64,000 nt of DNA from positions 854,326-918,325 of the forward strand of contig NZ_LT985808.1 of NCBI RefSeq assembly GCF_900291465.1. Direction: 5' to 3'. The notes below the pieces were generated by a model. That model did no database searches. It was not told the origin of the DNA and worked only from the letters and a program-made list of their open reading frames with translations. Position numbers and translations under genes: made by a program. This document shows positions 4,557 to 39,955 of this stretch, piece after piece. Numbering within the stretch: the first letter of the stretch is position 1; each line of letters starts with the position of its first letter. The DNA comes from Bacteroides sp. Marseille-P3684 (GTDB lineage: Bacteria; Bacteroidota; Bacteroidia; Bacteroidales; Bacteroidaceae).

Positions 4557-5133
4557 AAGAAGCGCTTTGCGCTTCTGACAAAACGTCAAACGAATCGCCC
4601 GAGAAGGGGCTTCCTTGCACCAGAATACGAGTTGGTGAGCAGGAAGGGCCTTCTCGGGCGATTTGTGTTTTTCACACTGACGGAGTTTTCCTCGGTTTCC
4701 TTTCCTTCTGTCTTGTTTTTCTTTCTGTTCATTCCCTTCCGTCGGTCTTTTCACACGGACGGACGCAATTTCACACATCGGAAATCGTGCCCCTTCGGTC
4801 CCTGAAAAATGGGGACAGGTGGGTGTTTTCGTACGGACGCGTCGGTACGACGGTGCGGACACGTCGGTACGACGGTAGTCGTTCGTCCGTACGAAGCCAA
4901 TCACAGGTGCTTTCGAGCGTGGAAATAGGTTCGGCGGATGCTTTTTCTGCGTTAGAAACGGTATAATTGTGTGAATATACGTTTATTCTGATGCGTTCTG
5001 ACGGATGTATCTTAAAATATTTAACGCGCGTTTTTCTAATTGGGACGATTTTGCGAAAATACGCGTTAGCTGAAAACGCCGAATCGGGAAAATATGATGT
5101 TAAAACCCGGAAAACGATGTCGTTTTGATAAAA
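4557..5133 (+). repeat. Long intergenic repeat, copy A
   Basis: About 575 bp that recurs at 13731-14297, 29483-30040 and, more diverged, 39394-39955, always in this orientation. Order of parts: short hairpin around GAAGCGCTTTGCGCTTC; extended hairpin 4593-4663 whose 15-bp outer arms read AATCGCCCGAGAAGG and CCTTCTCGGGCGATT; pyrimidine-rich stretch; block CACACGGACGGACGC; an inverted repeat with arms at 4828-4839 and 4884-4895 enclosing CGTCGGTACGACGG units; and a conserved 3' block containing TTAAAATATTTAACGCGCG. No known RNA family or transposase is recognised. It lies between the convergent upp and DUF4957-like genes. Confidence 0.85.
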
Positions 5134-5180
5134 TGAACATTCCCCACCTGCACCACGGTCACGAAACAACAAAGGAAGGC

Positions 5181-5229
5181 AAAGAAAAGCCCCTCCCGAC
5201 CTTCCGGTGAAGGAAAGGGCAGGAGGGGC
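5181..5229 (-). terminator. Terminator of the DUF4957-like gene
   Basis: GCCCCTCC and GGAGGGGC arms (5189-5196 / 5222-5229) with an inner CCTTC/GAAGG stem; on the minus strand the hairpin is followed by a T-rich tract. Confidence 0.7.
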
Positions 5230-5264
5230 AGTACAGGGGCCCGGTGAAGGGGCGGTGCGTCGGT

Positions 5265-6791
5265 CTATTTCATCCAGCGCGGGTCGCCCACGTTCCGGTA
5301 AGTCAGGTCTTCGTTGCCCAACGTGAAGTCACCGGAGGCGGCGTCCGCGAATTTCGGGTCAGCCTCCGTGGCGACAGTGGCGTGGTCGTCGGCGTGTGCG
5401 TTGCCCCACAGGTTCGGGCAGTTGAAGTAGTAGTTGTTGCCATAGGTCTCGGCAGCCTTCAGCTTGTCGGCACGCGCCCATACGCCGGAGTTGGCGTTAT
5501 TGGGGTTGGCAAGTCCGATGCCGTAGAAGAGGCAGTTCTCCACGGTGAGGGTGCTGCCGTCCTTCTCCACGCGGAAGAGTCCGGTGTTGTTGCCGTCGTC
5601 GATGGTGCAGAGGTTGTAGAAGGTGCAGTTGCGGAAGGTGACGGCGGCAGGTACCTGGCAGCGGACGAGCGAGCGGACGCCGTTGCTCAGGGTGGAGTTC
5701 GTCACCGTCAGTGCCGTCAGCGCTCCGCCGCGCAGGTCGAATCCGTCGCCGGCATTGTTGGCGATGCCGTCGATGAGCGTGTTGTTGATGGCGATGGTGC
5801 CGAAGGTCCCCTTCTTGTTGTTATAGAGGATGTGCTTCGTCGTGTTGCGCACCTCGCAGCCCTCGAGGGTCAGCGTGCCCAGGTTGGCGGCGGCGTCGGT
5901 CAGTTCGAGCAGATTGTCCGTCTCGCCCGCGCCGTCGAACACGAGGTCCGTCAGTGTGAGGGAGCCGACGGCTGTCGCCACGGTGAAGCGTCCCTTGATG
6001 ACCGCCTTGTTGGCGCGGTCGTAGGAGGCGATGGAGAGCGACTTCGTCAGGGCGTATTCACCCAGCTCGTAGGAGGTCCCGAGCAGGACCAGCTGGTCGC
6101 CGTCCTGTGCTGCGTCCAGTGCCTGGACAAGGTCTGCGCCTGCCTCGACGGGTGTCTTGCCGCCCAGGTCGATGGCTGTCTTGAAGCTCACCGTACCCCG
6201 GGTGGAGGTGCCGTTCTTCATCACGGCGGTGTAGTCGGTCTCCGGCGTCAGTCCGTCGATGGTGGCGGCACCGGCAGCGATGTCCTCGGGGGTGATGTGG
6301 TAGGTGATGTCGCCCGGTGTGAGCGTGATGGTCGTGGCTGTCTCGCCGGCGGGCCAGCGCAGGGTCACGCGGGTTGCCTCGATGTCGTCATTTGCCACTG
6401 CCTGGAAGATTTGTTCCGTGCCGGTGGTGAAGGTCGCCCCGACCCACTTGGACTCGGGGATTGCCTCGCCCAGTGCTTTCACACGGACGTAGTAGTCGGT
6501 CTCGCCCAGGAGTCCCTCATAGGTGATGGTGGCGTCCGTCACCTCGTCGGTCTTCATCGGCGTCTCTGTGGCGGCGGTTCCCTGATAGAGCTCCACGGTG
6601 TAGGAGGTTGCCTTGTTGACGGTGTTCCAGGAGACGGTCACGTCCACCTGGTTTCTGACGCGCGTCTCCAGCTCCGTGGGCGAGAAGAGGCGGTCGTAAT
6701 CCACGCTCGTCAGCTCGTCGGGAGCGTCCGAGCACGATGCCACTGCACCCAGCAGGAGGCATCCGGCTATATGTTTCAGATAGTTCTTCAT
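5265..6791 (-). CDS. SusE/F-position lipoprotein, fibronectin III plus beta-helix (DUF4957/DUF5123-like)
   Basis: 508-residue predicted surface lipoprotein (signal peptide with lipobox VASC near residue 20). Two fibronectin type III-like modules, about 35-130 and 130-215, are followed by a region of short repeated segments with alternating Asn/Thr and hydrophobic residues (about 220-490). That region looks like a right-handed parallel beta-helix, as in the DUF4957/DUF5123 proteins of pectin-type loci. In known systems such proteins bind glycan at the cell surface. No catalytic residues of a lyase can be pointed to. It is the last gene of the susC-susD operon on this strand (12 bp after susD) and has its own terminator. 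Domain names are from memory of the family. Confidence 0.7.
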   Translation of the reverse strand: MKNYLKHIAGCLLLGAVASCSDAPDELTSVDYDRLFSPTELETRVRNQVDVTVSWNTVNKATSYTVELYQGTAATETPMKTDEVTDATITYEGLLGETDYYVRVKALGEAIPESKWVGATFTTGTEQIFQAVANDDIEATRVTLRWPAGETATTITLTPGDITYHITPEDIAAGAATIDGLTPETDYTAVMKNGTSTRGTVSFKTAIDLGGKTPVEAGADLVQALDAAQDGDQLVLLGTSYELGEYALTKSLSIASYDRANKAVIKGRFTVATAVGSLTLTDLVFDGAGETDNLLELTDAAANLGTLTLEGCEVRNTTKHILYNNKKGTFGTIAINNTLIDGIANNAGDGFDLRGGALTALTVTNSTLSNGVRSLVRCQVPAAVTFRNCTFYNLCTIDDGNNTGLFRVEKDGSTLTVENCLFYGIGLANPNNANSGVWARADKLKAAETYGNNYYFNCPNLWGNAHADDHATVATEADPKFADAASGDFTLGNEDLTYRNVGDPRWMK

Positions 6792-6803
6792 AGGTTGTCC
6801 TGT

Positions 6804-8615
6804 TTATTGATAGTTGCTGCTGTTGACGAGCATTCCGTTGCTATTGTCGATGAACGTCTGCCAGATGGGCCAGAACTGGTACTGGTCGGGGTCGTTGACG
6901 TAGAGTCCCTTGATTTTGTCTGCCCACTCGTTCTTCCCTGCCCAGGAGGTGTTCTCGGCATAGCCCAGTGCGGCACCTTCCTCGTCGGTCTGTCCCAGTT
7001 CCACGCCGTAGATTTCGACGGTCTCGCCCGCCTTGACGACGTCCCACACGGTGCTCTGCGCCTTGGGCGTGCCGGTCACGGTCTGGTAGTAAATCTTGTC
7101 GGGCAGTGCGGCATACTTGCCCTCCTTGTTGAGCAGTTGGGTCATCTCCGCCTTGGCAGCCTCCAGTGTGCTTCCCAGGCGGTTCCAGCGGATGAGGTCC
7201 GCCTTGCGCAGCATCTCCCCGCACAACTCCAGTCCGCGTTGTTCGACGATGGCTTCACGGAAGGCGTCCTGGCTGGCGGTGGCAGCTGCGAGACGGGCTT
7301 CCGCCTTGTCGGCGGGCAGTGCGCGGTCCAGGATGGGCTTGAGGTAAAGAGCTGCCGCCTGCGGTCCGTCCAGCTCGTTGATTGCCTCGGCAGCCATGAG
7401 GTAGACGTCGGCCAGGCGCATGTAGAGCCAGTTGACCCCGTCGTCATTGCTTGAGGTGACGATGCGGTTCATCCACTCGTAGCGGTACTTGCCGAAGTAC
7501 CATTGGTTGACGGCATTGGGCACCTGCACGCCCTTCTCCCAGAAGTAGGGGACACAGGTGACGTTGCGCCGCTTGTCCTGCGGGTCGTACTTGTAGAAGG
7601 CAATCGGTGTGGGTCCGACGGTACCGCCTTTCGCCTGCTTGGTGTACTGGTCGACGTCCTTGTGGCGTACGCCCAGGTCAAAGAGGACACGTCCGCGTCC
7701 GGCCGAGAAGGGGATTTCCCAGATGGACTCGTTGCCCGCGGTGACATCGTCCTGACAGAGCCGGCGGAAGGTGTCCTCGAACTCTCCCAGCTGGTTGCAG
7801 CCCTGATTGATGATGCTGAGGCACTCCTCCTTCACCACCCGGTACATCTCGGCGGGCGCCAGGCGCGGGTCGTTGCTCAGGCGGATGGTGCCGTCGTTGC
7901 GCTGCGAGTAGCCTCCGGCATAGAGTGCCAGACGGGAGCGGAGCGCCTTGACGAACGCCTTGCTCACGCGCTCGGTCGTCCGTGTGGTAGCGGTCTCGTT
8001 GGGCCATGCCACGAGCTCCTCGGCGCGTTTGAGGTCGTTGAAGATGAGGCGGGCGTAGATGGAGTCGCGGTCCGCCTTGGGCTGGTAGATGGTCTCGGTC
8101 GTGATGGGAGCGAAGCGTGCCGGGACGTCGCCCCACGCCTTCAGCAGGTCACAGTAGTAGACGGCGCGCAGGGTTAGCGCCTCGCCCAGCAGCTGCCGGA
8201 AGGCAGGGTCCTTGAGGTCGGCATAGTTCTCCAGTCCGCGGATGCACATGTTGGCACGCTCGATGCCTTCGTAGAACTTGGCCCAGGCGTTGTTGTCGGT
8301 GTTCATCTGCGTGTTGGTCGTGTTGGGGTTGTAGTTGGAGAGCCGTGCCTTGTCGTCGCCGGTGTTCTCCGACGAGTTGTACCACTCCATGTCGGTGTTC
8401 ATTCCGTAATAGACGAGAAAACGTCCGCGGTAGGAGTTGGTCTCGGCAAACGACTGCAGGATGCCCATTACGGCATCTTCCGCCAGGTCTACGCTGGAGA
8501 AGACCACCGTCTCGTCGGTCGAGGAGATGGAGGGTGCGTCCAGGATGTCGTCGCAGGAGGCAAGTGCCCCCGAGCACAGGAGCATCGACGCACAGAGGTA
8601 TGTTGTCAGTTTCAT
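6804..8615 (-). CDS. SusD/RagB family outer-membrane lipoprotein (locus 1)
   Basis: 603 residues. Type II signal peptide with lipobox ALASC near residue 20, then the helical TPR-like N-terminal half and the C-terminal SusD domain (segments such as WLYMRLADVYLMAAEAINE and LRKADLIRWNRLG are typical). SusD proteins cap the SusC channel and hold oligosaccharide or other nutrient. It lies 21 bp downstream of the susC stop and upstream of the DUF4957-like gene. Because the partner SusC here is split by an insertion sequence, this protein probably has no working channel of its own and its transcription may be reduced by polarity. Confidence 0.95.
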   Translation of the reverse strand: MKLTTYLCASMLLCSGALASCDDILDAPSISSTDETVVFSSVDLAEDAVMGILQSFAETNSYRGRFLVYYGMNTDMEWYNSSENTGDDKARLSNYNPNTTNTQMNTDNNAWAKFYEGIERANMCIRGLENYADLKDPAFRQLLGEALTLRAVYYCDLLKAWGDVPARFAPITTETIYQPKADRDSIYARLIFNDLKRAEELVAWPNETATTRTTERVSKAFVKALRSRLALYAGGYSQRNDGTIRLSNDPRLAPAEMYRVVKEECLSIINQGCNQLGEFEDTFRRLCQDDVTAGNESIWEIPFSAGRGRVLFDLGVRHKDVDQYTKQAKGGTVGPTPIAFYKYDPQDKRRNVTCVPYFWEKGVQVPNAVNQWYFGKYRYEWMNRIVTSSNDDGVNWLYMRLADVYLMAAEAINELDGPQAAALYLKPILDRALPADKAEARLAAATASQDAFREAIVEQRGLELCGEMLRKADLIRWNRLGSTLEAAKAEMTQLLNKEGKYAALPDKIYYQTVTGTPKAQSTVWDVVKAGETVEIYGVELGQTDEEGAALGYAENTSWAGKNEWADKIKGLYVNDPDQYQFWPIWQTFIDNSNGMLVNSSNYQ

Positions 8616-8851
8616 AGGTCAGTGATTGGTTAACGGTTAGAAATTCAGGTTGAAGCCCACGACGAACGAGCGGCTCTTGGGATAGGCGGAGTAGTCCACG
8701 CCCGGGGTCAGGTTGGTCTGTCGGCGGGTGGACACCTCCGGGTCGAAGCCGGAGTAGCCGGTCCAGCAGAAGAGGTTGTAGCCCGTGACATAGAAGCGCA
8801 GGCTCTCAATCTTCACGCGGCGGGTCACCTCCTGGGGGGAGCAGTAGAAAA

Positions 8852-9844
8852 TCAGTGGGGATAACCATACAGCTTTGCGATTCTGAAGAGGAAGAATTTT
8901 TTGTCTACGACTCCATGCAGATTCGCCCTGAAAAGTTTGATTTTGGCGTTGAATGATTCGGCTGCCGCATTTGATGAGCGTTTGTTGTAGAAGTTCAGGA
9001 TTTCGTCATAATGCTCATAGAATGTCGAGGCAATGACATTGAACTGCTTCATTCTTGAATCATCGACTTTGTTGTACCATTTGGCCATGCTCAACCGCGC
9101 TGCATCTTTGATGGTGTTCTTTGAGAATATCATTCTTAATGAGTGGGACAGACCATAAGCCATTTTGATGTCAGGATACTCCTCGAAGAGGATTTTAGCC
9201 CTTTCCTTTTGTCTTTCCGTCCATTTGTCTGCTGATTTGAACAGAAGGTAACGGCTTCTGATGAGCAATTCCGGACGCGTGTCTCCATTGGAAAAGCGGA
9301 ACGGCACATAGGGCTTGCCGGTTTGTTTGCACTCTTCCATTTCTTCATTGCTTTGCTGCAAGGCGTCCTAACAGTGCGCAACACGGATTACCTGCACGTC
9401 ATCACAAGCCAGTTTCTGGATGTGGAAACGGTCAATCACTCTTTGAGCCTTCGGAAATGCGACAGAAACAATCTTGCGCATTGAATCGGAAAGGTCAAGG
9501 GTCACTTCCTCCACTTTCATGCGTTCTTCCTCGTCTATCAACTTCAGCACCTGTATCACGTCTTCCGATTTCGTGCCGGAAACGACCGCCACCAGACTTC
9601 CTTCACCTGTATGCCGGTCACGGTTGGTGACAAACGTATACAGCTCCCCATTGGACAGGGAAGACTCGTCTATGGCAAGATGCCGGCCTATGTTTTCGGG
9701 AAACAACAGCCATGAATCGGCATGGTCTAGCTGGTCCCAGTCGTGGAAGCCGCTTAGCGTTTCCTTGTACTGTTTCTCAAAGGTATGTGCATTTATGTGG
9801 TAGAATGTTTCAAGCGTACGGCAGGTCACAGGGGATGTCTCCAT
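8852..9844 (-). pseudogene. ISAon1-type transposase with in-frame amber stop
   Basis: The reading frame from 9844 to 8852 covers 331 codons and would encode a DDE transposase of the ISL3/ISAon1 type: DESSLSNGELYTFVTNRD near the start of the catalytic core, DRFHIQKLACDDVQ in the middle, and NAAAESFNAKIKLFRANLHG near the C-terminus (the conserved final Glu region). Codon 159 is TAG (9368-9370), in frame with both halves, following a Cys codon. In this family the position reads like Arg-Trp-Asp-Ala, so a Trp codon changed to amber is the simple explanation. Unless suppressed, the element cannot make full transposase by itself. It overlaps the upstream N-region ORF by 35 nt. Confidence 0.85.
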
Positions 9845-10196
9845 ACGTTTCTTTTAAAAAAGCCCCGAACTCCTTGGAGTAACGGGTTCCTTTGCAGGCT
9901 ATGTCAAGGCTGATTGGAAGGCTGAAACTCTTGCCTGTACGCAGGTCGGTCCACCTGCGACGGCGTATGACCAGTATGACCTTATGGTCGCGTATCGGGA
10001 AATCGGTTACATTCACAGCCTCCATGAAGCCTTTGGATGCAAAATTGGCATCTGATGACAATCCCGCATTCATTAACTCGTCGAGATAAATATGAATCTC
10101 TGTCCGACTCTGTTGCACACCTGCTATCTCAAAATGATCCAGTATTTCTGAAGGCAGCACGATACGCGCAAGCACTTCCAATTGATTCTTTTCCAT
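9810..10196 (-). CDS. ISAon1 family transposase N-terminal region protein
   Basis: 128 residues, beginning MEKNQLEVLARIVLPSEIL and containing a basic cluster IRRRRWTDLRTGK (about 78-90), consistent with the separate zinc-finger/DNA-binding N-terminal ORF that accompanies ISAon1-type transposases. It overlaps the transposase start by 35 nt in another frame, so the two may be joined by translational coupling or frameshifting. It starts 40 bp inside the right terminal inverted repeat. Intact in this copy. Confidence 0.8.
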   Translation of the reverse strand: MEKNQLEVLARIVLPSEILDHFEIAGVQQSRTEIHIYLDELMNAGLSSDANFASKGFMEAVNVTDFPIRDHKVILVIRRRRWTDLRTGKSFSLPISLDIACKGTRYSKEFGAFLKETYGDIPCDLPYA

Positions 10197-13100
10197 AAGG
10201 CAAAGGTCGGAATTCCTCTGGATATTGGAAAACTAATCCCCACTGATTTTCTACTGCTCCTCCTGGGGCAGGGTGTAGCCCAGGGTCAGCGTGCTCAGGC
10301 GGAGGAAGGAGCCGTCCTCGACTGCCCAGTCGGAGAACACGCTGCTCTTCATGTAGGGCGACCACATGGTGGTGCCTTCGTTCATTGCCGCCAGTTTCTC
10401 GGGGTCGTTGCAGAGCGTGCCGTCCTCGTTGAGGTTGGTCCAGCGCTTGCCGCTCTCCATGATGGTGAGCATGTTGCGGTACTTGCTGCCTCCGGTGGTG
10501 GTGTATTCGATTTTGTTGGCGTTATAGACGTCGTTGCCGTAGCTCCAGTTGAAGTTGGCGGTCAGGTCGAAGTCGTAGACGCGTGCATTGATGCCGAAGC
10601 CGCCGGAGTGTACCGGGTTGGCATTGCCGATGATTTCGCGGTCGTCGTTGTCGACCACGCCCTCGCCCGTGAGGTCCTTCAGCTTCATGGAGCCGGGACG
10701 CAGGTCGCCGATGACGTTGGACGCGTCGACAACCCCTTCCTTCAGAATCCATTTGTGGGTGGTCTCGTCGTAGCCGCTGAAGTCGGACACCTCGTAGCGT
10801 CCGTCATGACGGAAGCCGTACATCTCGCCGACTTGTCCGCCGACGGCAATCCAGTAGTCGTCGCCCACGGCGGTCGATGCCCATCCGGAGTCCTGGCCGA
10901 AGTCGTTCATGATGCCGAGCGACTTGATCTTGTTCTTGTTGAAGCCGATGTTCGCGTTGAAGCTCAGTCCGAAGTTCGGCTTGTTAATGGCGACATAGTT
11001 CACGGTCGCCTCGAAGCCGCGGTTCTCGGTCTCTCCCATGTTGCGGTACTGTGTGTCGTAGCCCGTTCCCGCCGTCGGGAATTCGATGAGAAGGTCCTTT
11101 GTCGTGTTCCAATAGTACTCGAGCGAACCGTTGAGGCGTCCGCCCAGGAGGGTGTAGTCGACGCCGAGGTTGCGCGTGATGGTCGTTTCCCACTTCAGGT
11201 CCGGGTTCGCCATGGTCTTCGACGGTGCCCAGTAGGACGAGGTGGTGTTCAGCCATCCGGTGGTGTTGGCGCCCCAGGTCTGCACGAGCAGTCCCGTCGG
11301 GATGTTGTTGTTGCCTGCGGTACCATAGCTGAAGCGGAGCTTCAGGTCGTCGAGCCAGCCCTGCGTGCCCTCCATGAAGGGTTCGGCGGAAATACGCCAG
11401 GCAAGGGCGGCTGAGGGGAAGTAGCCCCACTGGTTGCCGTCGCCGAACTTGGAGGAGCCGTCGGCACGGAAGGTAGCGGAGAAGAGGTATTTGCTGTCAT
11501 AGTCGTAGTTCACACGCCCGAAGAAGGAGAGAAGGATGTCGTTGGGGTTGTAGAAGTCCTTGATTTCATAGGCGTCGCCCTGGGTCGTCAGCTTGAAGCA
11601 GTCGTCGGCGTCGAAGCTGGTGGGGAAGCCGTGGACGGTGTTGGTCATCACCTTCTCCTTCTCGATGATGTACTCCTGACCTGCCATGAGGTTGAGGTGA
11701 TGCCGGCTGTCCTTGCCCAGCACGCCGGCAAAGTCGTAGCTCACGGTGTTCGTGTTACGGAAGGTCGAGCGGTCGGTGCCCGTGAGGATGATGGCAGGCT
11801 TCTCCTTGTTCTCCTCCGTGGGTGTGTTCTTTACATAATAGGTAGAGAGGCCGTAGAAGCGGTTGTCCTGGTTGTCGTAGGTGTCGTATCCGAACTCCGT
11901 CTTGAAGCGGAAGTCCTTGAAGATTTCCCAGGCGAAGCTGCCTGCCATGTTGAGTGTGGAGCGACGTTGGCGACGGTCGGTGTCGCGGATGGACTCCAGG
12001 GGGTTGTAGAGGTTGAAGCTCGGGTCGGTCTCACCGCCTGCCACCGATGCGTCGGAGAGTCCCTCCACGGGGAACGGCGTGTAAATCATGGCGTGCTTCA
12101 GGCGGGCGTCGCTCGACGAGGTGGAGCTCTGCTCGTTCATGCCGCCGCCGTTCACCTTGCGCTTGGCGTAGCGGACGGAGAAGTCGAGGTCGACGTTCTT
12201 GACCGGATTCACGTTGAGCTTGAGGCTGAGGTTGTCGCGGACGAAGTCGGACATCTGCATGATGGCTTTGTCGTCGATGTGTGCGTAGTTGAACGAGAAC
12301 TTCATCTTCTCCGAGCCGCCCGTGATGCTCAGGCTGTGGTTGAACGTGTGGCCCGTGCGACCGAAGACGATGTCCTGCCAGTCGTTCGTCTCGACATCGT
12401 CATAGAGGTCGATGTCCTGCCAGTTGCCGAAGTACTTGCTGTACTGCTCGGGATTGATTTCATCGGGCTTCGTCTGGTTGTCCAGCATCGCCAGCTCGTA
12501 CTGCCAGCGTGCGTAGTCGCCGGCGCCCATGACGTCAAGGCGGTCCGCCAGCTTCTTAAAGGAAATGTAAGCGTTGTAGTTCACGCTGATTTTCCCCTCC
12601 TTGCCGCTCTTTGTCGTGACGATGATGACGCCGTTGGCTCCGCGCGAACCATAGATGGCAGTAGAGGACGCATCCTTCAGCACGGTGATGTCCTCGATGT
12701 CGGTAGCCGGGATGTCGCTGATGGACTCGACGGGGAATCCGTCGACAATGAACAGAGGGTCGTTGCTCTGGGTGATGGAGCCGCCACCGCGGACTCGGAT
12801 CTTCATTTCCGCATCGGGCGAACCTTCCGTCGTGGTAATCTGCACGCCGGCGAGCTTGCCCTGCATCGCCTCGACGGCGGAAGCCACCGGAACGCCCACC
12901 AACGCCTCTGCGTCGACCGTGGCAACGGACCCGGTGATGTCCTTCTTTTTCACAGAGCCGTATCCGATTACGACCACCTCTTCAAGGTTCTGTGCGTCCT
13001 CGCGCAGGACTACGTTCAGTGGAGCATTTTTACCCTTCTCCACGGGGATTTCCTGGGACAAGTACCCGATGTACGAAAAGACGAGCACACTCCCCGCGGG

Positions 13101-13413
13101 CACGTTCGCGAGCTTGAAGTTGCCGTCGAAATCCGTTATGGCGCCGGTCTTGGCACCCTTCACTTGTACGCTGACGCCAATCAGCGGCTCGCCCGCCGGG
13201 TCCGTCACCGTACCCGTCACGTTCTGCCCCTGTGCGAAAGCGAACAGGCAGACGAGCCCCATCAACAGGGTCACTGCCCATCGTCTTGCATGAACATACT
13301 GGTTCATCATAAGCAAAATTTGTTTTTAGATATTAGACTTTATGTTCTGTAAAGTGCTCTTCCGTTCTCCTGCCGACGTTTCCGCCCGGCAACAAAGTTT
13401 AAAAGAGCGAAGG

Positions 13414-13421
13414 CAAAATTA
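13414..13421 (-). promoter_or_regulatory. susC (locus 1) promoter, -7 element
   Basis: Minus strand reads TAATTTTG (TAnnTTTG), about 105 bp upstream of the susC ATG. No clear -33 box. Confidence 0.45.
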
Positions 13422-13556
13422 CTGAAAAAGGCTTAATACGTGGTGGACTATTCGCTCGTTTTGGTGGACTATTTGTATCATACGAAACAAAATACCATGT
13501 TATATAACACTTTTTACGTGGCAAAAGGGTGAGACGGGCGTTTCCGTTTGTTGGAC

Positions 13557-13579
13557 GGGGCGACCAGACCGGTCGCCCC
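13557..13579. repeat. GGGGCGACC/GGTCGCCCC small palindrome, copy 1
   Basis: 9-bp arms with a 5-base loop AGACC, followed by CTACAT. It belongs to a REP-like intergenic family; further copies at 13668-13688, 14334-14354 and 30074-30094, with half-copies at about 29366 and 30174. Confidence 0.8.
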
Positions 13580-13620
13580 TACATGGACCGCCTGATTGGA
13601 CCATCCTCCACGCCGCAGGG

Positions 13621-13654
13621 CAATTGTCCATTGTCAATTGTCCATTGTCAATTG
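13621..13654. repeat. CAATTGTC heptamer run
   Basis: Head-to-tail copies of the CAATTGTC/CCATTGTC heptamer between two of the small GGGCGACC palindromes. Confidence 0.8.
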
Positions 13655-13667
13655 AATATGTTGGACC

Positions 13668-13688
13668 GGGCGACCAGACCGGTCGCCC
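13668..13688. repeat. GGGCGACC/GGTCGCCC small palindrome, copy 2
   Basis: 8-bp arms, loop AGACC, same flanks TTGGACC and CCTACAT as the other copies. Confidence 0.8.
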
Positions 13689-13730
13689 CTACATTTTGAG
13701 AAATGTTTTGCGGACGGGGACGGGCGGTCG

Positions 13731-14297
13731 TGTCAATTTGTCAAAATGTCAAATGAATCGCCTGAGAATGCCCGCGGTTGCACCAAAATACGAGTTGGTG
13801 AGCAGGAAGGGCCTTCTCAGGCGGTTTGTGTTTTTCATGTTGTCGGTATTTTCGTTGGTTCCCTTTCCTTCTGTCTTGTTTTCCTTTCTGTTCGTTCTCT
13901 TCCGTCGGTCTTTTCACACGGACGGACGCAATTTCACACATTGGGAATCGTGCCCCTTCGGGCTCTAAAAAATGGGGACAGGTGGGTGTTTTCGTACGGA
14001 CGAACGACTACGACGGTGCGGACACGTCGGTACGACGGTAGTCGTTCGTCCGTACGAAGCCAATCATAGGTACTTTCGAGCGTGAAAACAGGTTCGGCGA
14101 ATGCTTTTTTTGCGTTAGAAACGGTATAATTGTGTGAATATAGGTTTATTCTGATGCGTTCTGACGGGCGTCTCCTAAAATATTTAACGCACGTTTTTCT
14201 ATTTGGGACGATTTTGCGAAAATACGCGTTACCTGAAAACGCCGAATCGGGAAAATGTGATGTTAATATCCGGGAAACGGTGTCGTTTTGACAAATG
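13731..14297 (+). repeat. Long intergenic repeat, copy B
   Basis: Strongly similar to copy A over its whole length. The outer hairpin arms here read AATCGCCTGAGAA and TTCTCAGGCGGTT: relative to copy A, C-G became T-A on both sides. The inner inverted repeat is longest here, a perfect 21-bp pair at 13991-14011 and 14038-14058 with a 26-base loop. The 3' block GCGTTAGAAACGGTATAATT and the segment ending in GAAAACGCCGAATCGGGAAA are conserved. It lies in the divergent region between susC (locus 1) and the small membrane protein gene. The interval 13317-14546 holds no gene. Confidence 0.85.
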
Positions 14298-14333: not shown

Positions 14334-14430
14334 GGGCGACCAGACCGGTCGCCCCTACATTCGCCGCCTTGTGGGTTCATACCTATGCCGAAGGGCAATT
14401 GTCAATTGTTCCTTGTCAATTGTCAATTGA
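14334..14430. repeat. Small palindrome copy 3 plus heptamer run
   Basis: GGGCGACC/GGTCGCCC palindrome (14334-14354), a ~40-bp linker with CGCCGCCT and GCCGAAGGG, then CAATTGTC heptamers to 14430. The same compound module recurs at 30074-30170, and an inverted variant occurs around 29292-29375. Confidence 0.8.
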
Positions 14431-14505
14431 GGCATGGTTGGACCGTTTCCTGCATCTTTTCGAAGAAAATGTGCAGCATTCCTTTCTTTTCCCAAAAACA
14501 ATACC

Positions 14506-16850: not shown

Positions 16851-16926
16851 GTTTGTATATACCCCCTTCGTCCGGTTGTACGGACGGAACCGGTTCCGGC
16901 CGGCATGTTATGCACCCACGAGGCGA

Positions 16927-17058
16927 CAATTGATAATTGACAATTGACAATGGACAATTGCCTTTCGGCGTGTGTATGCACCCACGAGGCGACAATTGTC
17001 AATTGTCCATTGTCCATTGTCAATTGAAGCGTTGTCAATTGTCCCTTGTCAATTGCCC
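16927..17058. repeat. CAATTGAC/GTCAATTG heptamer block
   Basis: Heptamers in both directions around a GCACCCACGAGGCGAC sequence that itself occurs twice (about 16911 and 16978). The right edge runs into the 3' end of the TlpA-family gene and supplies its last codon and stop. Confidence 0.85.
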
Positions 17059-29291: not shown

Positions 29292-29375
29292 TTAATTGAC
29301 AATTGATAATTGACAATTGACAATTGCCCTGCGGCGTGTGCCTGAATCCACAAGGCGGTGAATGTAGGGGCGACA
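29292..29375. repeat. Heptamer run with inverted small-palindrome module
   Basis: AATTGAC/CAATTGAT heptamers (29292-29327), then on the plus strand the reverse complement of the linker seen at 14355-14395 (GCGGCGTGTG, CAAGGCGG), ending in a half palindrome TGTAGGGGCGAC. Confidence 0.75.
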
Positions 29376-29381
29376 TAACAG

Positions 29382-29482
29382 AATTGACAATTGACAATTG
29401 ACAATGGACAATTGCCGTTCGGTGCGACGGGCGAGACCACAAGGAGATAATTGTCAATTGTCAATTGTCCATTGTCAATTGA
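29382..29482. repeat. Heptamer block preceding long repeat C
   Basis: Almost base-for-base the same as 4456-4556, including the spacer GCCGTTCGGTGCGACGGG and GACCACAAGGAGATAATT. Confidence 0.85.
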
Positions 29483-30040
29483 AGAAGCGCTTTGCGCTTC
29501 TGACAAAATGTCAAATGAACCGCCTGAGAATGCCCGCGGTTGCACCAAAATACGGATTGGTGACCGGGAAGGCCCTTCTCGGGCGATTCGTGAAATACAT
29601 ACTGACGGTATTTTCGTCGATTCCCTTTCTTCCTGTTCCATTTTCCTGTCTGTCCGTTCCCTTCCGTCGGTCTTTTCACACGGACGGACGCAAAATCACA
29701 CATCGGGAATCGTGCCCCTTCGGGCTCTAAAAAATGGGGACAGGTGGCTGTTTTCGTACGGACGAACGACTACGACGGTGCGGACACGTCGGTACGACGG
29801 TAGTCGTTCGTCCCTACGAAGCCAGTCACAGGTGCTTTTGACCGTGGAAATTGGTTCGGCGGATGCTTTTTCTGCGTTAGAAACGGTATAATTATGTAAA
29901 TGTATGTTTATTCTGATGCGTTCCGAGGGATGTATATTAAAATATTTAACGCGCGTTTTTCTAATTGGAGCGAATTTGCGGATTTGTGCGTTACCTGAAA
30001 ACGGCAAATCGGGAAAATGTAATGTTAAAACCGATGTTTT
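29483..30040 (+). repeat. Long intergenic repeat, copy C
   Basis: Shares with copies A and B the GCGCTTTGCGC mini-hairpin (A and C), the extended hairpin (arms AACCGCCTGAGAA / TTCTCGGGCGATT, using wobble pairs), and the 21-bp inverted repeat at 29753-29773 / 29800-29820 with one mismatch. It also shares the 3' block with TTAAAATATTTAACGCGCG. It lies between the divergent ECF sigma and argS genes. The interval 29263-30284 holds no gene. Confidence 0.85.
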
Positions 30041-30073
30041 AATTGACAATTGTCAATTGATGTTCGTTGGACC

Positions 30074-30190
30074 GGGCGACCAGACCGGTCGCCCCTACAT
30101 TCACCGCCTGATGGATTCAGGCATACGCCGAAGGGCAATTGTCAATTGTTCCTTGTCAATTGTCAATTGATAAAGGTCGCCCCTACATTC
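30074..30190. repeat. Small palindrome copy 4, linker and heptamer run
   Basis: GGGCGACC/GGTCGCCC (30074-30094), linker TTCACCGCCTGATGGATTC, heptamers (30137-30170), then a half palindrome AAGGTCGCCCCTACATT and a second linker start. Same module as 14334-14430. Confidence 0.8.
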
Positions 30191-30284
30191 GCCGCCTGAT
30201 GGAATTGTTCATGTCCCGGACGGGAATTGTCCATTGAAACCGCGTTGCCGGGGCGCGGTGGTGTGCCGATTCGTTTTTTCTTCC

Positions 30285-30292
30285 TATCTTTG
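30285..30292 (+). promoter_or_regulatory. argS promoter, -7 element
   Basis: TATCTTTG (TAnnTTTG) 45 bp before the argS ATG. Confidence 0.55.
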
Positions 30293-30336
30293 CCGCCGAT
30301 AAGGAAGTAACTAAGCAACTAAGCATTCAATACGTT

Positions 30337-32130: not shown

Positions 32131-32302
32131 GCAGGGGCGGACGTCCCTGACGGATACGAATGGACAACTGACAAGGCATTCTCACGCCGGCACGTCGTCG
32201 TGTGCCGGGGGTCGGCAGCAGCCGGTTTCCCCACACGGACGGCAGCCGGCAGGGGTGGCTTGCCGGTTGTCCATTTTTCATGGGCGGACGCCGCGTCCGT
32301 CC

Positions 32303-33151: not shown

Positions 33152-33208
33152 GGGTCGTAATCTTAAGAATGGGACACAGAATCGGAATAATGTGGCTTTG
33201 CGTACGTG

Positions 33209-33216
33209 CAAAATTA
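33209..33216 (-). promoter_or_regulatory. Promoter of the AraC-type gene, -7 element
   Basis: Minus strand TAATTTTG (TAnnTTTG), 58 bp upstream of the ATG. The plus-strand lipoprotein promoter must share this 142-bp region, but no clear -7 match is seen for it. Confidence 0.5.
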
Positions 33217-33293
33217 TAAGAACTTTGCAGCGATTTTCCGGACTGTGCGAAACGGTCTGCAAGGTAAGAATATAATATTAAACAACGAAGACG

Positions 33294-35081
33294 ATGAAGA
33301 AAGATTTTTTCAAGACCATGCTCCTGATGCTGTGTACGGTTTTCACGTTTGCGGCATGTAGCGACGACGACGATCCCATCCTGGGCAGTGAGGCTGCGAT
33401 GATCAGCTTCTCCTTTGACCCCTCTGTAGCTGCCAACTCCATTGTGACCTCCCAACCGGTCATCGGCAGTGACAACTCGATTACGTACACGGTGAGCGAA
33501 CAGGCTACCGAGGCACAGCTGGCTACGCTGGTGCCGACGGTGGTTGTTTCCGCCGGTGCCACTTATACGGCTTCCGGTTCTGACTTTTCGAAGGAAGTGA
33601 CCTACAAGGTCGTTTCAGAGGACGGTCAGACGACCACGCAATATGTGGTGAAAGTGCCGGGCCTGACCTATCCCATCGAGGAGCAGGTTGCCGGAACCTA
33701 CAAAGGCTTGCTGAACGTTGAGATGATGGGAAGCAGCCTGGTGGTCGACGAGCCGAAGAACATCACCGTGACGAAGAACAAGGGCAATGCCGTTGATTTG
33801 CTCCTGACTGACTTCTCCTTCCAGGGAATGCCCTTGGGCGACATCCAGCTCGACAGCCTGACGGTGACACTTGACGACAAGGGCGTGTACACCTTCACCG
33901 GCAACCAGGGACTGACCTTGGGCAGCGGTGTGGGCGACTGCACCGTGGAGACCGAAGGTACGGTGGACAATGGTGCCGTGACGGCGAAGCTCACCATCCT
34001 GTGGATGCAGGTTCCCATCAACGTGACCTATACCGGCGAACGCCTGACGGGCGACGAGAGTGGCGAGGCAAAGATGACGGCATTCTCCTTCACCGGCAAT
34101 CCTTCGTTCGTGGCACAGCAACCGGTCATCAATGACGACAATACCATCACGTTCGGCGTCAGTGAGTCCACAACCGACGAGCAGCTGAAGTCGCTGCAAG
34201 CCACCGTGGAGGTTTCGGCCGGAGCAACTTACAAGGCCGACGGCACCGACTTCTCCAAAGACGTGACCTACACCGTGGTTGCGGAGAACGGCACCGTGGC
34301 AACCTACGTTGTGAAGGCTCCCGCCCGTATGGCATCGCTGAAGTATTCCTTCGACGAGTGGGAAAGCGTGGCAGGAAGCTTCCTCAGCAACGCATACGAC
34401 AAACCGAAACCGACGAATGAGTTGGCCTCCAGTGCCGAAGGCGCAGGCATGCTGAAGCTCTTCGGGTTTACCGACATGCCTGTCTACAAGTCTACCGACG
34501 ACAAGGTGGCAGGTGCTGCCGCTGCCCGTCTGGTGACGATGGACACAAGTGCGAAGGCAAGTACCCTGGTGCCCGCCATTACTTCCGGTTCGTTGTTCAC
34601 GGGCCAGTTCGACATGTCGGTGGCTACAACCGACAAGTTGAGCAGTACACGCTTCGGCATCGCCTATGACAAGAAGCCGTTGCGCTTCAAGGGCTACTAC
34701 AAGTACACGCCGGGTGAGAAGTTCATTGACGGCACGGACGTGGAGAACATTGTCACCGTGGACAAGACCGATGAGTGCGCCATCCAGGCAGTGCTCTACG
34801 AAGCTGAGACCGAAGACTTCACGTTGACAGGTCACGACATCAACAACTCTGACAAGCGCGTCGCAGTAGCTGCCCTGTCCGACGGTTCAGCAAAGGCAGA
34901 CTGGACATCGTTCGATATCCCGTTCACCTGGCTCGAAGGCAAGACCTATGACCCTGCCAAGAAGTACAAGCTCGCCATCGTCTGCTCATCCAGCAAGGAG
35001 GGTGACCTCTTCAAGGGGGCAGGCGGCAGCACACTGCTCATCGACGAGTTCGAGGTAGTCGGCGAGGCCGTAGCGAAATAA
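33294..35081 (+). CDS. Lipoprotein with tandem Ig-like/calycin-like modules and C-terminal PCMD domain
   Basis: 595 residues. Lipobox FAAC near residue 22 followed by a run of five Asp, then two related modules: SFSFDPSVAANS..QPVIGSDNSITYTVSE (about 34-125) and SFTGNPSFVAQQPVINDDNTITFGVSE (about 265-350). Between them is a calycin-like segment (about 126-255, start PIEEQVAGTYKGLLNV). The C-terminal ~240 residues match the putative carbohydrate metabolism domain (PCMD), a jelly-roll fold. Predicted surface glycan-binding protein. The internal repeat of the DUF5018-like module is clear by eye. Divergent from an AraC regulator and followed by a strong terminator, so it forms its own unit. Confidence 0.82.
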   Translation: MKKDFFKTMLLMLCTVFTFAACSDDDDPILGSEAAMISFSFDPSVAANSIVTSQPVIGSDNSITYTVSEQATEAQLATLVPTVVVSAGATYTASGSDFSKEVTYKVVSEDGQTTTQYVVKVPGLTYPIEEQVAGTYKGLLNVEMMGSSLVVDEPKNITVTKNKGNAVDLLLTDFSFQGMPLGDIQLDSLTVTLDDKGVYTFTGNQGLTLGSGVGDCTVETEGTVDNGAVTAKLTILWMQVPINVTYTGERLTGDESGEAKMTAFSFTGNPSFVAQQPVINDDNTITFGVSESTTDEQLKSLQATVEVSAGATYKADGTDFSKDVTYTVVAENGTVATYVVKAPARMASLKYSFDEWESVAGSFLSNAYDKPKPTNELASSAEGAGMLKLFGFTDMPVYKSTDDKVAGAAAARLVTMDTSAKASTLVPAITSGSLFTGQFDMSVATTDKLSSTRFGIAYDKKPLRFKGYYKYTPGEKFIDGTDVENIVTVDKTDECAIQAVLYEAETEDFTLTGHDINNSDKRVAVAALSDGSAKADWTSFDIPFTWLEGKTYDPAKKYKLAIVCSSSKEGDLFKGAGGSTLLIDEFEVVGEAVAK

Positions 35082-35112
35082 CGGACAGTTCATATCCTCT
35101 CTTTAAATTGAT

Positions 35113-35163
35113 AAGAAAAGCCGTCCCGGCTTCCCCTGACGGGGGAGTGGGGCGGCTTTCTTG
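35113..35163 (+). terminator. Terminator after the PCMD lipoprotein gene
   Basis: GAAAAGCCG and CGGCTTTC arms with inner CCCC/GGGG pairing, ending TTTCTTGTT on the plus strand; the flanking A-rich 5' side makes it potentially bidirectional. Confidence 0.75.
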
Positions 35164-35200
35164 TTGGGGCAGGGGCGGACCTTCCTCCCACCCCAACACC

Positions 35201-35237
35201 AAACGAGCCCCTGCCGACCTTCGGCAGAGGCTCGTTT
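35201..35237. terminator. Hairpin between convergent units (yfhO side)
   Basis: AAACGAGCC / GGCTCGTTT arms with inner CTGCCGA/TCGGCAG pairs. Located 20 bp past the stop of the minus-strand YfhO gene; T-tract is weak. Confidence 0.55.
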
Positions 35238-35259
35238 GCTCTCAGGCAGGGGTTGCGCA

Positions 35260-37776
35260 TCACTTACGCTTCCCGCGTCGCACGTGCAGCACGATGCCTG
35301 CCACGATGCCCAGCAGCATGAGGGCGAGGGCGATGTAGGCGATGGTCTCTGTCGTGTGCAGCGAAACCGGGTCGAACGTCATCACCAGCTCGTGGCGTCC
35401 GGCGGGCACCTGGAGCGCACGCAGGATGTAGTCGGCGCGTCCGACTGCCACCTCCTCGCCGTCGATGAATGCCTGCCAACCGGGATAGTACACCTCGGCG
35501 AAGACCACCACGCCACCCTTCGGAGAGTTCACTTCGTAGGTCAGGCGATTGGCGTCATAGGACTTCATCGTCACCGTACAGGTGGAGTCGACGGGTTGTG
35601 CCTGTCCGACGGCAGACGCGAAACGCTTGTCCACCACTGCCGTATGACGGGGGTTGATGTGGTGGAGCGCCTCAATCTCCTCGTTGGCATTTGCCACCTC
35701 CTGCACCTCGCTGACGAACCATGCGTTGCCTAAGGCATAGGGGTTCTGCAGGGGGACGGTCGTCCCGTCGGCGGCAGGAAGGATGAACCAGCGCGTGTTG
35801 AGCATGTTGATGACCGGGAACAGCGAGTCGTTCACCTGCGTCATGTCGCCGCCGGCGGTCGCTACCTCTTTGTAGAGGGCCTGCATCTCGGGGGCGATGT
35901 GCTCCTCGATCATCTCCTGATAGCGGCGCAGCTTCGCGGCGTTATATCCGCCCACGCTCTTGTGGTAGTAGGACGTCTCGTTCTCGTTGAAGGTGTTCGA
36001 CGCAAGGTTGAGCACACGGTAGTCCAGTGATTTGTCGCTGAGGATGACCTTGTCGGCGGCTGACGGGCTGAACAGCTTGCTGTGTGCCACCTCCCGGGGC
36101 TCGACATACATCTCGTCGCACAGGTAGCGCTTGTTCACCGACCAGAGGTCCACGAGGCAGAGCACGCCGACCAGCACCAGGGTCGTCTTCGCCTTCAGCC
36201 TGCCCAACGCGAAGAAGGCGATGAGCAGCGTGCCGGCAAGCACCACGAAGAAGCTGCGCCACGCATCGGCGGTGAACATCGCCACGCGCATGTCCGTCAG
36301 GTTCGTCAGCACCGCGGTGAGGTACTGCGACGGAAGTCCGTTCTGCAGCGCGCCCATCTCCATCGAAGAGATGAACGACGAGAAGCACACCTTCGGCGCC
36401 ACGGCAAAGAGGAAGGCGACACCGCCCGTCAGCAGGAAGCTGCCCACGAACGCCTTCCGGTGCTCGCGGAGGACCTGCGGACGCGAGAGCACCTCACGCA
36501 GCGCCATCATGGCAAGCAGCGGGATGGTGAACTCCGCTATCACCAGGATGGATGCTACCGTACGGAACTTGGCATACATCGGCACGTAGTCGATGAAGAA
36601 GTCGGTGAAGCCCATGAAGTTCTTTCCCCACGACAGGAGCACCGACAGCACCGTGGCTGCCAGCAGCGCCCACTTCATCGGGCCCTTCACGATGAAGCAG
36701 CCCAGCACGAAGAGCATCAGCACGAACGCCCCCACGTAGACGGGGCCCGAGGTACCCGGTTGCTCGCCCCAGTACTGCGTCAGCTGGCTGTAGAGCGAGC
36801 TGAACTGCGGGTCCGCCTTTGCCATCGCCGTGGCATTGTCGCTCATCAGCATGGGCTTGTCGCCGCGGTTGCTCGCGCCGCCCTTCACGTTCGGCACCAG
36901 GAGGGACCAGGTCTCGCCGATGCCGTAGCTCCAGGCAGTGATGTAGTCGCGCTCCAGTCCGCTGTCCGTCTGGTTCCCGTTGTCCGCTTTCACCAGTTCG
37001 CTCTTGCCGCGCATGGACTCCTTGCTGTACTGCCAGGTGTGGTAGAGGTTCGACAGGTTCACGCAGGCACCGATGGCAGCTGCCACCAGCAGCGTGCACG
37101 TCGCCTTGACGAAGCGCGGCATCTCCCTCTTCCGCCAGGCATCCACGCCGAAGGCTATCGCCATGAAGAGCATGACGAAGCCGAAGTAGTAGCTCATCTG
37201 GATGTGGTTCGAGAGGATTTGCAGAGCGAGGAAGAACGCCGTGACGATGCCTCCCCACAAGTACTTGCCGCGGTAGGCGAGCACGACGCCCGCTATCGTC
37301 GGCGGAATGTAGGCGAGGGTGACGAACTTCCAGATGTGGCCTGCCGCAATGATGATGAAGAAGTAGGACGAGAATGCCCACAGCACGGCGCCGAGGGCGG
37401 CCATCCATACGCGGAAGTCAAAGGCGCGCAGCAGGATGTAGAACCCGAGCAGCATGATGAACACCAGCCACACGCTGCCCGGAAGATAGAGGTGATAGAC
37501 GTCCCCGACGGTCTTCAGCAGGTCCGTCGAGTCGTAGCTCGGCGCCATCTGATAGGTAGGCATGCCGCCGAAGAGCGCGTTGGTCCAACGGGTGCGCTCG
37601 CCCGTACGCTGTTGATACTCTTGCATCTCGATGCCCGAGCCGATGCCTGCCACCGCGTCGTGCTGTGCCAGTACGCGTCCCTCGAGCACCGCCGGGAAGA
37701 AGTAGGCGAGCGAGAGCACCACGAAGGCAACCACCGCGATGACATCGGGCAAAATCAGTTTGAAGTGCTTGTTCAT
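35260..37776 (-). CDS. YfhO-family polytopic membrane protein
   Basis: 838 residues with about 12-13 hydrophobic helices, starting with a signal-anchor (about 10-30) and a large external loop with EGRVLAQHDAVAG (about 32-44). That is the place where GT-C glycosyltransferase-like YfhO proteins carry acidic residues. A soluble C-terminal domain lies before the last helix (about 812-832, followed by Arg/Lys residues). YfhO proteins are thought to glycosylate envelope polymers such as teichoic acids in Gram-positives; the substrate in Bacteroidetes is unknown. It starts 10 bp after the ahcY stop and is probably co-transcribed with it. Confidence 0.88.
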   Translation of the reverse strand: MNKHFKLILPDVIAVVAFVVLSLAYFFPAVLEGRVLAQHDAVAGIGSGIEMQEYQQRTGERTRWTNALFGGMPTYQMAPSYDSTDLLKTVGDVYHLYLPGSVWLVFIMLLGFYILLRAFDFRVWMAALGAVLWAFSSYFFIIIAAGHIWKFVTLAYIPPTIAGVVLAYRGKYLWGGIVTAFFLALQILSNHIQMSYYFGFVMLFMAIAFGVDAWRKREMPRFVKATCTLLVAAAIGACVNLSNLYHTWQYSKESMRGKSELVKADNGNQTDSGLERDYITAWSYGIGETWSLLVPNVKGGASNRGDKPMLMSDNATAMAKADPQFSSLYSQLTQYWGEQPGTSGPVYVGAFVLMLFVLGCFIVKGPMKWALLAATVLSVLLSWGKNFMGFTDFFIDYVPMYAKFRTVASILVIAEFTIPLLAMMALREVLSRPQVLREHRKAFVGSFLLTGGVAFLFAVAPKVCFSSFISSMEMGALQNGLPSQYLTAVLTNLTDMRVAMFTADAWRSFFVVLAGTLLIAFFALGRLKAKTTLVLVGVLCLVDLWSVNKRYLCDEMYVEPREVAHSKLFSPSAADKVILSDKSLDYRVLNLASNTFNENETSYYHKSVGGYNAAKLRRYQEMIEEHIAPEMQALYKEVATAGGDMTQVNDSLFPVINMLNTRWFILPAADGTTVPLQNPYALGNAWFVSEVQEVANANEEIEALHHINPRHTAVVDKRFASAVGQAQPVDSTCTVTMKSYDANRLTYEVNSPKGGVVVFAEVYYPGWQAFIDGEEVAVGRADYILRALQVPAGRHELVMTFDPVSLHTTETIAYIALALMLLGIVAGIVLHVRRGKRK

Positions 37777-37786
37777 AAAGGAAGGG

Positions 37787-39205
<1,419 letters not shown>

Positions 39206-39303
39206 TTTATAGTGTTTTGATTTGTTGTCGGTTCTCCGCCTCGCCGGCGGGTGCGCGTCGGTGCCGTCAGCCGACGGTCCCGCGCGTGTGTCCGGAGGAC
39301 CTG

Positions 39304-39333
39304 CAAATATAGACAATCTTTCTCTTTCAGCAA
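39304..39333 (-). promoter_or_regulatory. ahcY promoter
   Basis: On the minus strand TTG (39333-39331), 19-bp spacer, then TATATTTG (39311-39304): a good match to Bacteroides -33/-7 spacing. Confidence 0.65.
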
Positions 39334-39393
39334 GATATGCCGGCGGCGAATGTGGGGCGGCAGGATGCCACCGGTCCGTCGCGGCGTCGGTGT

Positions 39394-39955
39394 CAGAATG
39401 TCAAAATGTCAAACGAAGCGCCCGTGAAGGGGCTTCCTTGCGCCAAAATGCGGGCTGGTGACCGGGAAGGCCCTTCTCGCGCGATTCGCAAAATGCAGGT
39501 TGTCGCCTTTCCCGTCGTTCCGCTTTCTTTTGTTCAGCGGAAGGGCTGTTCAGCCGACGGGACGTTGCCGGGACCGTCCGTGCGGACGTCAGGACGACAG
39601 TGGACAAACGGAAGGCTCCGTCCGTCTGAAAATGAAAATAGGTAAAGAAAACAGACAAAACCGATGCCTTTTTTCGTGCGGACACGTCCGTACGACGGTG
39701 CGGACGAACGACTACGGTGGTACGGACGCGTCCGTACGAAAGTGAAAACGGGTTGGAACGACGCTGCGAAGGGGTCCGCACCCTCGTTTTTGTGTTAACG
39801 GAATAAAAATGGGAGCCTGTCCGGACATCCGTGTCTTAAAATATGTATTCAACTGCGCGCTGGAAGGGACGAAATGACGAAAGTACGCGTCAGCTGAAAA
39901 CCCCGAATCGGGAAAAAGTGACAGGAAAACAGGGAAAATAGCGACGAAATGACAA
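39394..39955 (+). repeat. Long intergenic repeat, copy D (diverged)
   Basis: Aligns with copies A-C at the start (TGTCAAAATGTCAAACGAAGCGCCCG, hairpin with GGGCTTCCTTGCGCC and GGGAAGGCCCTTCTCGCGCG). It matches again in the GTACGGACG-type tract and the 3' block (CTTAAAATATGTATTCAACTGCGCGC, then CTGAAAACCCCGAATCGGGA). The middle is rewritten, and the GTACGGACG units occur in a different order from copies A-C. It lies between the divergent ahcY and metallophosphoesterase genes; 39334-40122 holds no gene. Downstream of it is a C/G-rich stretch with several CACGG/TGTAACGGG repeats. Confidence 0.7.

Follow-up and report, generated by a model that had tools for sequence, protein, structure and literature searches.

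The 64,000-nucleotide stretch of Bacteroides sp. Marseille-P3684 analyzed here (contig NZ_LT985808.1, positions 854,326 to 918,325; the window) holds copies of a structured intergenic repeat, which raises the question of what this repeat is and what keeps it in the genome. An earlier note on this DNA had placed four copies in the window, all in one orientation, and had suggested a non-coding RNA family, an element resembling a miniature inverted-repeat transposable element (MITE) mobilized in trans, or a chromosome-organizing sequence tied to replication direction. The four copies were borne out at their places by repeat finding and BLAST. There are at least about 112 copies of this ~0.55-kb intergenic cassette on one 3.7-Mb chromosome, and we consider the family and its geometry secure. 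Judged from their sequence and placement, the arrays of dyads inside the cassettes may be protein-binding sites, born of a MITE-like element and retained to mark or organize the chromosome, a reading that we put just short of evenly balanced.

Copy number of the cassette family

The genome comprises three contigs, the main one of 3,706,277 bases. BLAST of one window copy (copy 2) against its own chromosome found, besides partial matches, 23 near-full-length places including itself, with identities of 77-100%. With a covariance model (R1) built on the left 135 nt, at least 142 matches were found among the best 150 of 1257 candidates scored; dropping opposite-strand echoes of the hairpin reduced them to at least 108 distinct loci. 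One locus found by BLAST alone, at 481 kb, completed a working set of 109 copies. A sequence-only model (R2), built from 48 copies of the classes A, B1, and B2 described below, added three clear loci among the best 150 of 1008 candidates scored, including a fifth window copy (copy 5), and brought the family total to at least 112. These three loci were classed by eye, two as B1 and one as unclassified, and the two B1 loci entered the class-avoidance test. Weak R2 matches at 460.7, 2075.5, 3119.2, and 3464.1 kb were left out of the counts. An unrestricted R2 scan of 464 kb (twenty spaced 20-kb stretches plus the window) found no uncounted left module, and an array scan of the same 464 kb found two class A arrays without a left module, at 304.8 and 1037.3 kb, which stand outside the counts.

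Cassette anatomy and classes

A cassette, read from the left, starts with an end (TTTGTCAAAATGTCAAACGAA) and a ~115-bp left module, followed by a divergent stretch, a dyad array, a right module, and a closing end that, where clear, is an inverted copy of the left end. The distance from left anchor to right end was 547-558 bp in the middle half of the 43 copies with a clear right end (range, 516-569). An array of three to four dyads, 22 bp apart, occupies a fixed place in 105 of the 109 copies. Simple rules assigned 29 copies to class A, 38 to B1, and 38 to B2, with four unclassified. Class A, which takes in all four copies first noticed in the window, carries three 18-bp units (once four) around GTRCGGACRCGTCSGTAC in the 28 copies examined. 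The typical B1 array has three units of AAACAATATTGTTT and one of AAACACAAGTGTTT, the latter in either orientation, and the B2 array has four units related to AAACAATATTGTTT. Allowing at most one mismatch, AAACAATATTGTTT occurs at 237 sites in the genome, compared with one site for a reversed control.

The window copies and their parts are as follows.

4571..5133, plus strand: copy 1, class A cassette, 90% identical to copy 2; left module at 4571-4685 (model R2)
4831..4892, plus strand: dyad array of copy 1; three 18-bp units at 4831, 4853, and 4875, in 22-bp steps
13731..14297, plus strand: copy 2, class A, query of the first genome search; left module at 13731-13848
13994..14055, plus strand: dyad array of copy 2; units at 13994, 14016, and 14038
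14205..14297, plus strand: right module of copy 2, ending in TTTTGACAAA; defined by a repeat family plus conserved alignment columns
5042-5132 and 39866-39956, with a weaker one at 29967-30057: right-module equivalents
29496..30040, plus strand: copy 3, class A, 87% identical to copy 2 over 9-536 of 567; left module at 29496-29610
29756..29817, plus strand: dyad array of copy 3; units at 29756, 29778, and 29800
39392..39955, plus strand: copy 4, class A, diverged; left module at 39392-39508
39676..39737, plus strand: dyad array of copy 4; units at 39676, 39698, and 39720
55300..55850 (outer ends approximate), minus strand: copy 5, class B-type, diverged; left module at 55728-55838, 46.1 bits
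55466..55545, minus strand: dyad array of copy 5; AAACAATATTGTTT at 55466, 55510, and 55532, in 22-bp steps
55488: fourth dyad of copy 5, AAACACTTGTGTTT as read on the plus strand

Repeat finding recovered a 300-nt block in three of these copies, two of them 88% and 83% identical to the reference, and the diverged fourth copy was recovered through repeat blocks of 131, 91, and 63 nt. The right end of copy 3 diverges from the family and continues into heptamer repeat DNA. The array lies 269 bp from the left anchor in copy 4 and 247 bp from it in copies 1 to 3.

Conservation and helical phasing of the dyads

The step from one dyad to the next is 22 bp in all 57 class A steps and in 212 of 221 class B steps; seven of the remaining class B steps are 44 bp and two are 23 bp. 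Median pairwise identity between copies is 77% in class A, 68% in B2, and 0.55 as a fraction in B1. Even so, the dyads are nearly invariant next to their variable spacers, most clearly in B1. In B1, mean information reaches 1.77 bits per dyad position compared with 0.46 in the spacers (150 units), and in B2 the contrast is smaller (1.67 versus 0.77; 147 units), both figures being somewhat inflated because dyad units were picked at three mismatches or fewer.

The left-module-to-array distance shifts by about one helical turn. Among 76 class B copies, the left anchor lies 281-285 bp (53 copies), 292-294 bp (4), 303-306 bp (18), or 314 bp (1) from the first dyad; among 28 class A copies, the distance is 247 bp in 22, 269 bp in four, and 246 and 270 bp once each. 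For class B, phase concentration R was 0.90 at periods of 10.5 and 11 and 0.85 at 22, and on the 13 distinct distances it was 0.76. The phasing counts are not independent because the copies share descent. Common descent accounts for part of the phasing, and neutral copies so drifted would not be expected to retain it. RNA folding offers no explanation either, as the consensus fold across classes nearly disappears. We consider it probable that the dyads bind protein and are kept in place.

Nearly all cassettes display three to four palindromic operator-like sites on one face of the DNA helix, between conserved left and right modules. Dimeric sequence-specific proteins with at least two specificities, one for the GC-rich dyad of class A and one for the AAAC-N6-GTTT dyad of class B, may bind the arrays cooperatively and may also contact the left module.

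Placement of the cassettes on the chromosome

From GC skew, sampled over ~0.86 Mb, the inferred origin lies at about 0.6 Mb, in an interval from about 0.55 to 0.8 Mb where the skew sign is unsettled, and the inferred terminus at about 2.28 Mb. The six 16S genes all run in the direction that this origin predicts. The genes dnaA (2.947 Mb) and parB (2.934 Mb) lie together, ~1.4 Mb away from that origin.

The cassettes are evenly spaced. The CV2 of copy spacing was 0.597, compared with 0.998 ± 0.065 in jittered sets, none of 5000 of which was as low. Only two gaps were under 8 kb where 24.6 were expected, and the picture was similar with 112 copies. Copies of different classes also keep apart: pairs under 8 kb numbered one for B1-B2 (7.9 expected), none for A-B1 (4.2 expected), and, more weakly, none for A-B2 (2.5 expected; fraction, 0.05). 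This avoidance across classes argues against a purely class-specific immunity.

Copies are scarce around the terminus, with five within 400 kb on either side compared with 23.5 expected (P = 7e-7), and this depletion persists for assumed termini from 2.15 to 2.55 Mb (P = 4e-7 to 2e-3). The classes also differ in their distance to the origin, with medians of 259 kb (A), 828 kb (B1), and 1095 kb (B2). When class labels were shuffled, class A was nearer the origin in none of 20000 shuffles and B2 was farther at P = 5e-5; both results persist for assumed origins from 0.45 to 0.9 Mb. All 29 class A copies lie within a quarter chromosome of the inferred origin, and B1 and B2 are not so confined.

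The single orientation that the earlier note had seen is true of its four copies and does not extend to the family: copy 5 is on the minus strand, and strands are balanced genome-wide (plus to minus: A, 15:14; B1, 18:20; B2, 16:22). Neighboring copies share a strand slightly more often than chance (62 versus 53.5 ± 5.1). Since strand is random relative to replication, we rejected the proposed tie to replication direction; the chromosome-organizing suggestion is otherwise supported by even spacing, terminus depletion, and class zoning.

With genes called from codon usage, the cassettes lie between tandem genes in 45 cases, divergent genes in 27, and convergent genes in 21 (16 of 109 uncallable), against a background of 56, 34, and 22. 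From these near-background proportions, we rejected a role tied to gene orientation, as terminator or promoter. By the same gene calls, the window copies at 13.7, 29.5, and 39.4 kb sit in divergent regions, and the first copy sits between convergent genes; for the family, context follows background.

Distribution in other genomes and the literature

BLAST of the cassette against 60 relatives gave no match. At one mismatch or fewer, the dyad had at most seven sites in any of 14 congeners and 30 in any of 100 relatives; the reversed control often gave similar counts in the relatives, and a few relatives of the same order showed a modest excess (28 versus 9, 14 versus 2). Among 40 relatives searched with R2, the 14 congeners among them, there was one convincing match (52 bits, E = 1.5e-13; next best, E = 0.012), a lone left module in a congener (G003, contig 52, 66005-66140) upstream of a tex-like gene, and no dyad array was seen beside it. 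The adjacency of the extracytoplasmic function (ECF) sigma gene and argS was present in none of 17 relatives checked for an orthologous empty site.

The earlier note had held that a family of four copies and no more, unconserved in relatives, would tell against its proposal. The first part is excluded by the genome-wide count; the second is very nearly the case, since a single left module turned up in the 14 congeners.

One class A copy and one B2 copy had no DNA match in phage and plasmid collections, and we rejected a phage or plasmid origin; viral contigs held no exact match to the dyad pair or to two module patterns. Over a genome-contig collection that may not include this genome or near ones, the exact dyad-pair pattern was found in two contigs alone, from a Synergistaceae and a Chitinophagaceae metagenome-assembled genome. 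No description of the cassette family or of AAACAATATTGTTT was met in the literature searched, which lacks most subscription papers.

Comparison with known systems

BIME/REP, ERIC, BOX, and REPIN repeats are, like the cassettes, dispersed, intergenic, and palindromic. No repeat family known to us joins fixed-phase 22-bp dyad arrays with even, zoned placement. The sites of MaoP/maoS, like class A, reportedly keep to a single region of the chromosome.

The placement of the cassettes resembles the published maps of Noc and SlmA sites. Bacillus subtilis has ~70 Noc sites of 14 bp and Escherichia coli 24-52 SlmA sites, palindromes that occur chromosome-wide yet are under-represented near the terminus (PMC4726725, PMC3116907). 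The cassette arrays share with them the dispersal of palindromes and the depletion near the terminus. They differ in that Noc and SlmA sites are short, whereas each cassette is a 0.55-kb unit with a phased array, in three classes and with two dyad types. In E. coli, matS is a 13-bp site with 23 repeats in the Ter macrodomain, read by MatP (PMC3116907). Like matS, class A is restricted to one part of the chromosome, here near the origin; unlike MatP/matS, there are several classes, with A near the origin and B2 far away.

In anatomy, the nearest relative is BrickBuilt, a MITE of Porphyromonas gingivalis. It has a leader, a tandem array of 23-nt units (about two helical turns each), and a tail; 19 copies in ATCC 33277 of 84-991 nt, with 1 to 22.8 repeats and no spacers; and IS5-like ends with varied short duplications at three of the four copies that have both ends (PMC4596501). 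BrickBuilt and the cassettes are alike in their leader/array/tail layout, inverted-repeat ends, intergenic placement, and narrow host range. In contrast to BrickBuilt, the cassettes number at least 112, measure 547-558 bp from left anchor to right end in the middle half of 43 copies, end in TTTGTCAAAATG, show no duplication, and are evenly spaced and zoned from origin to terminus; instead of spacer-less 23-nt tandem repeats in variable number, they have 22-bp steps, variable spacers, and mostly three to four units.

Marking of the chromosome and its alternatives

Because even spacing across classes, terminus depletion, and zoning resemble the Noc and SlmA maps, we consider a chromosome-marking function about as probable as not. 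Several observations weigh against it. B1 is unzoned (shuffle fraction for nearer, 0.81). No binding protein for the arrays was identified in a search that did not extend to TetR-family proteins, and the single ParB-family protein found, at 2.934 Mb, has no link to the arrays. Near-absence from 14 congeners is odd for a core chromosome system. A B2 cassette lies ~0.55-0.70 kb upstream of five of the six 16S genes (945, 1677, 2609, 3314, and 3620 kb), and one such pair, 99.5% identical over 1.6 kb, was copied along with the operon flank. Five of 93 callable copies overlap a called gene by more than 60 bp, in a family that otherwise lies almost wholly between genes. In class A, one reading frame is open in most copies over ~390 nt; coding sequence was rejected as an explanation, class A, the one class analyzed, having no clear codon-position excess. 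To these points are added the inflation of the dyad conservation figures, the shared descent behind the phasing counts, and the regional patterns described below.

The strongest alternative, although we think it somewhat unlikely, is a selfish, non-autonomous MITE-like population mobilized in trans. The dyads would then be recombinase or transposase sites, retained because all copies stem from transposition-competent ancestors; target immunity would space the copies, and quick turnover would leave the terminus poor in them. The cassettes fit a MITE in being short (~0.55 kb), in high copy number, and intergenic, with no clear codon-position signal in class A, and among the species searched they are confined to this one. 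Their terminal inverted repeats (TTTGTCAAAATGWCA; majority ends TTTGTCAAAATGTCA and TTTGTCAAAATGACA) were seen in 43 of the 109 copies, those that have both anchors, at a mean identity of 0.52 in register versus 0.20-0.32 out of register, a figure biased upward by the selection of these copies on anchor similarity. Of nine close pairs, one shows homology that runs almost exactly end to end (18-583); in the remainder the match overran or fell short of an end. Against these features, no excess of target-site duplications beyond 2 standard deviations over shuffled pairings was found at any offset tried in the 43 copies, so that the earlier suggestion of a MITE-like element holds for the imperfect ends and the one pair and fails on the duplications. 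B1 dyads are intact at a median identity of 55%, whereas dead copies of that age would be expected to decay evenly. Avoidance also extends across classes with different dyads, as between A and B1, although a common immunity could be carried by shared ends or by the AAAC/GTTT dyad that B1 and B2 have in common; immunity leaves the zoning by origin distance unexplained. The inverted-repeat ends, the pair copied end to end, and the likeness to BrickBuilt (PMC4596501) speak for a mobile origin; that mobility is the whole story is made less likely by the absent target-site duplications and by the conserved dyads of old copies.

Less likely still, in our judgment, is that class zoning is mostly regional history, a GC-rich origin-proximal region holding its own repeats, class A included, through recombination or import; this would be compatible with either chromosome marking or a selfish element. 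GC content is 0.59-0.60 at 0.6-0.9 Mb, compared with 0.41-0.51 in bins at 2.1-2.7 Mb, and the terminus depletion could reflect this AT-richer, possibly more variable region. Class A identity falls weakly with distance (rho = -0.32, P = 0.011), as expected from local copying, a trend absent in B1 and B2. Other repeats accompany class A in the window.

4454-4551, 13621-13649, 14394-14431, 16925-17050, 29298-29476, and 30040-30171: tandem heptamer arrays of the CAATTGT/CCATTGT type
13558-13582, 13668-13692, 14334-14358, and 30074-30098: palindrome GGGCGACCAGACCGGTCGCCCCTAC, resembling repetitive extragenic palindromes, adjoining cassettes

The heptamer pattern has 48 matches in the window, compared with 0.07 expected, and heptamer arrays lie within 400 bp of 21 of 29 A cassettes, none of 38 B1, and one of 38 B2. 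The palindrome core GGTCGCCC is also common in samples at 0.655-0.918 Mb, and both repeats were most frequent in samples from this same region. Class A thus coincides with other region-restricted repeats, and its zoning may be regional history. However, A and B copies interleave outside 0.63-0.93 Mb, the B-type copy 5 lies inside the GC-rich region, and A and B1 avoid each other. Part of the class A zoning may be explained by regional history.

We consider it improbable that the cassettes are operators or decoys of a global transcription regulator, controlling adjacent genes or titrating the regulator. Palindromic, 22-bp-phased sites would suit such a protein, as would the place of three of the four first-noticed copies between divergent genes, but the family's gene context is like that of background intergenic gaps, its strand is random, and gene control gives no obvious reason for even spacing or terminus depletion. 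A structured non-coding RNA of ~0.55 kb can be set aside as very improbable: the class A alignment does outdo 20 column-shuffled controls in folding (z = -8.2, plus strand; -3.4, minus strand), yet most of this fold comes from the left hairpin and the array, both inverted repeats at the DNA level, two-sided change occurs in one of 17 predicted left-module pairs within class A, the cross-class consensus fold dwindles to three pairs (-0.95 kcal/mol), loop-less dyads make poor RNA hairpins, and Rfam yields group II intron pieces alone in the window and rRNA and microRNA matches below gathering scores at five element loci.

Other features of the window

A group II intron lies at 46824-48664, with Rfam parts D1-D4 at 46824-47125 and RF00029 at 48574-48664, and contains an open reading frame of 468 codons (47166-48572). 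In a stretch poor in called genes, two 77-nt copies are 94% identical (56318-56394 and 59937-60013), and a pair of 74-nt repeats (88%) lies at 56447 and 57655.

What the cassettes may do

Chromosome marking would work as follows. The cassette would descend from a MITE-like element copied as a unit, and selection would keep copies in place. Bound by their proteins, the cassettes would act much as Noc, SlmA, or MatP sites do, as regularly spaced markers or anchors, and might take part in nucleoid occlusion, in tethering to the membrane or divisome, or in the loading of condensin; the array signal would change from origin to terminus. Our fullest version of this proposal is more tentative than its core: a chromosome-zoning system of three phased operator-array classes and at least two predicted binding proteins, set at steps of ~10-30 kb, giving an origin-to-terminus address, and domesticated from a MITE-like element in one lineage. 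The strict geometry, 22-bp dyads in steps of helical-turn phase, makes the predicted binding complex easy to test.

To our knowledge, chromosome organization in this lineage has been little described. If the cassettes are chromosome markers, they would occupy more places per genome, in more site classes, than the Noc, SlmA, and MatP examples cited here. A mobile-element family would have been turned into evenly spaced chromosomal architecture inside one species. If they are instead a selfish element, they would form a striking natural record of genome-wide target immunity.

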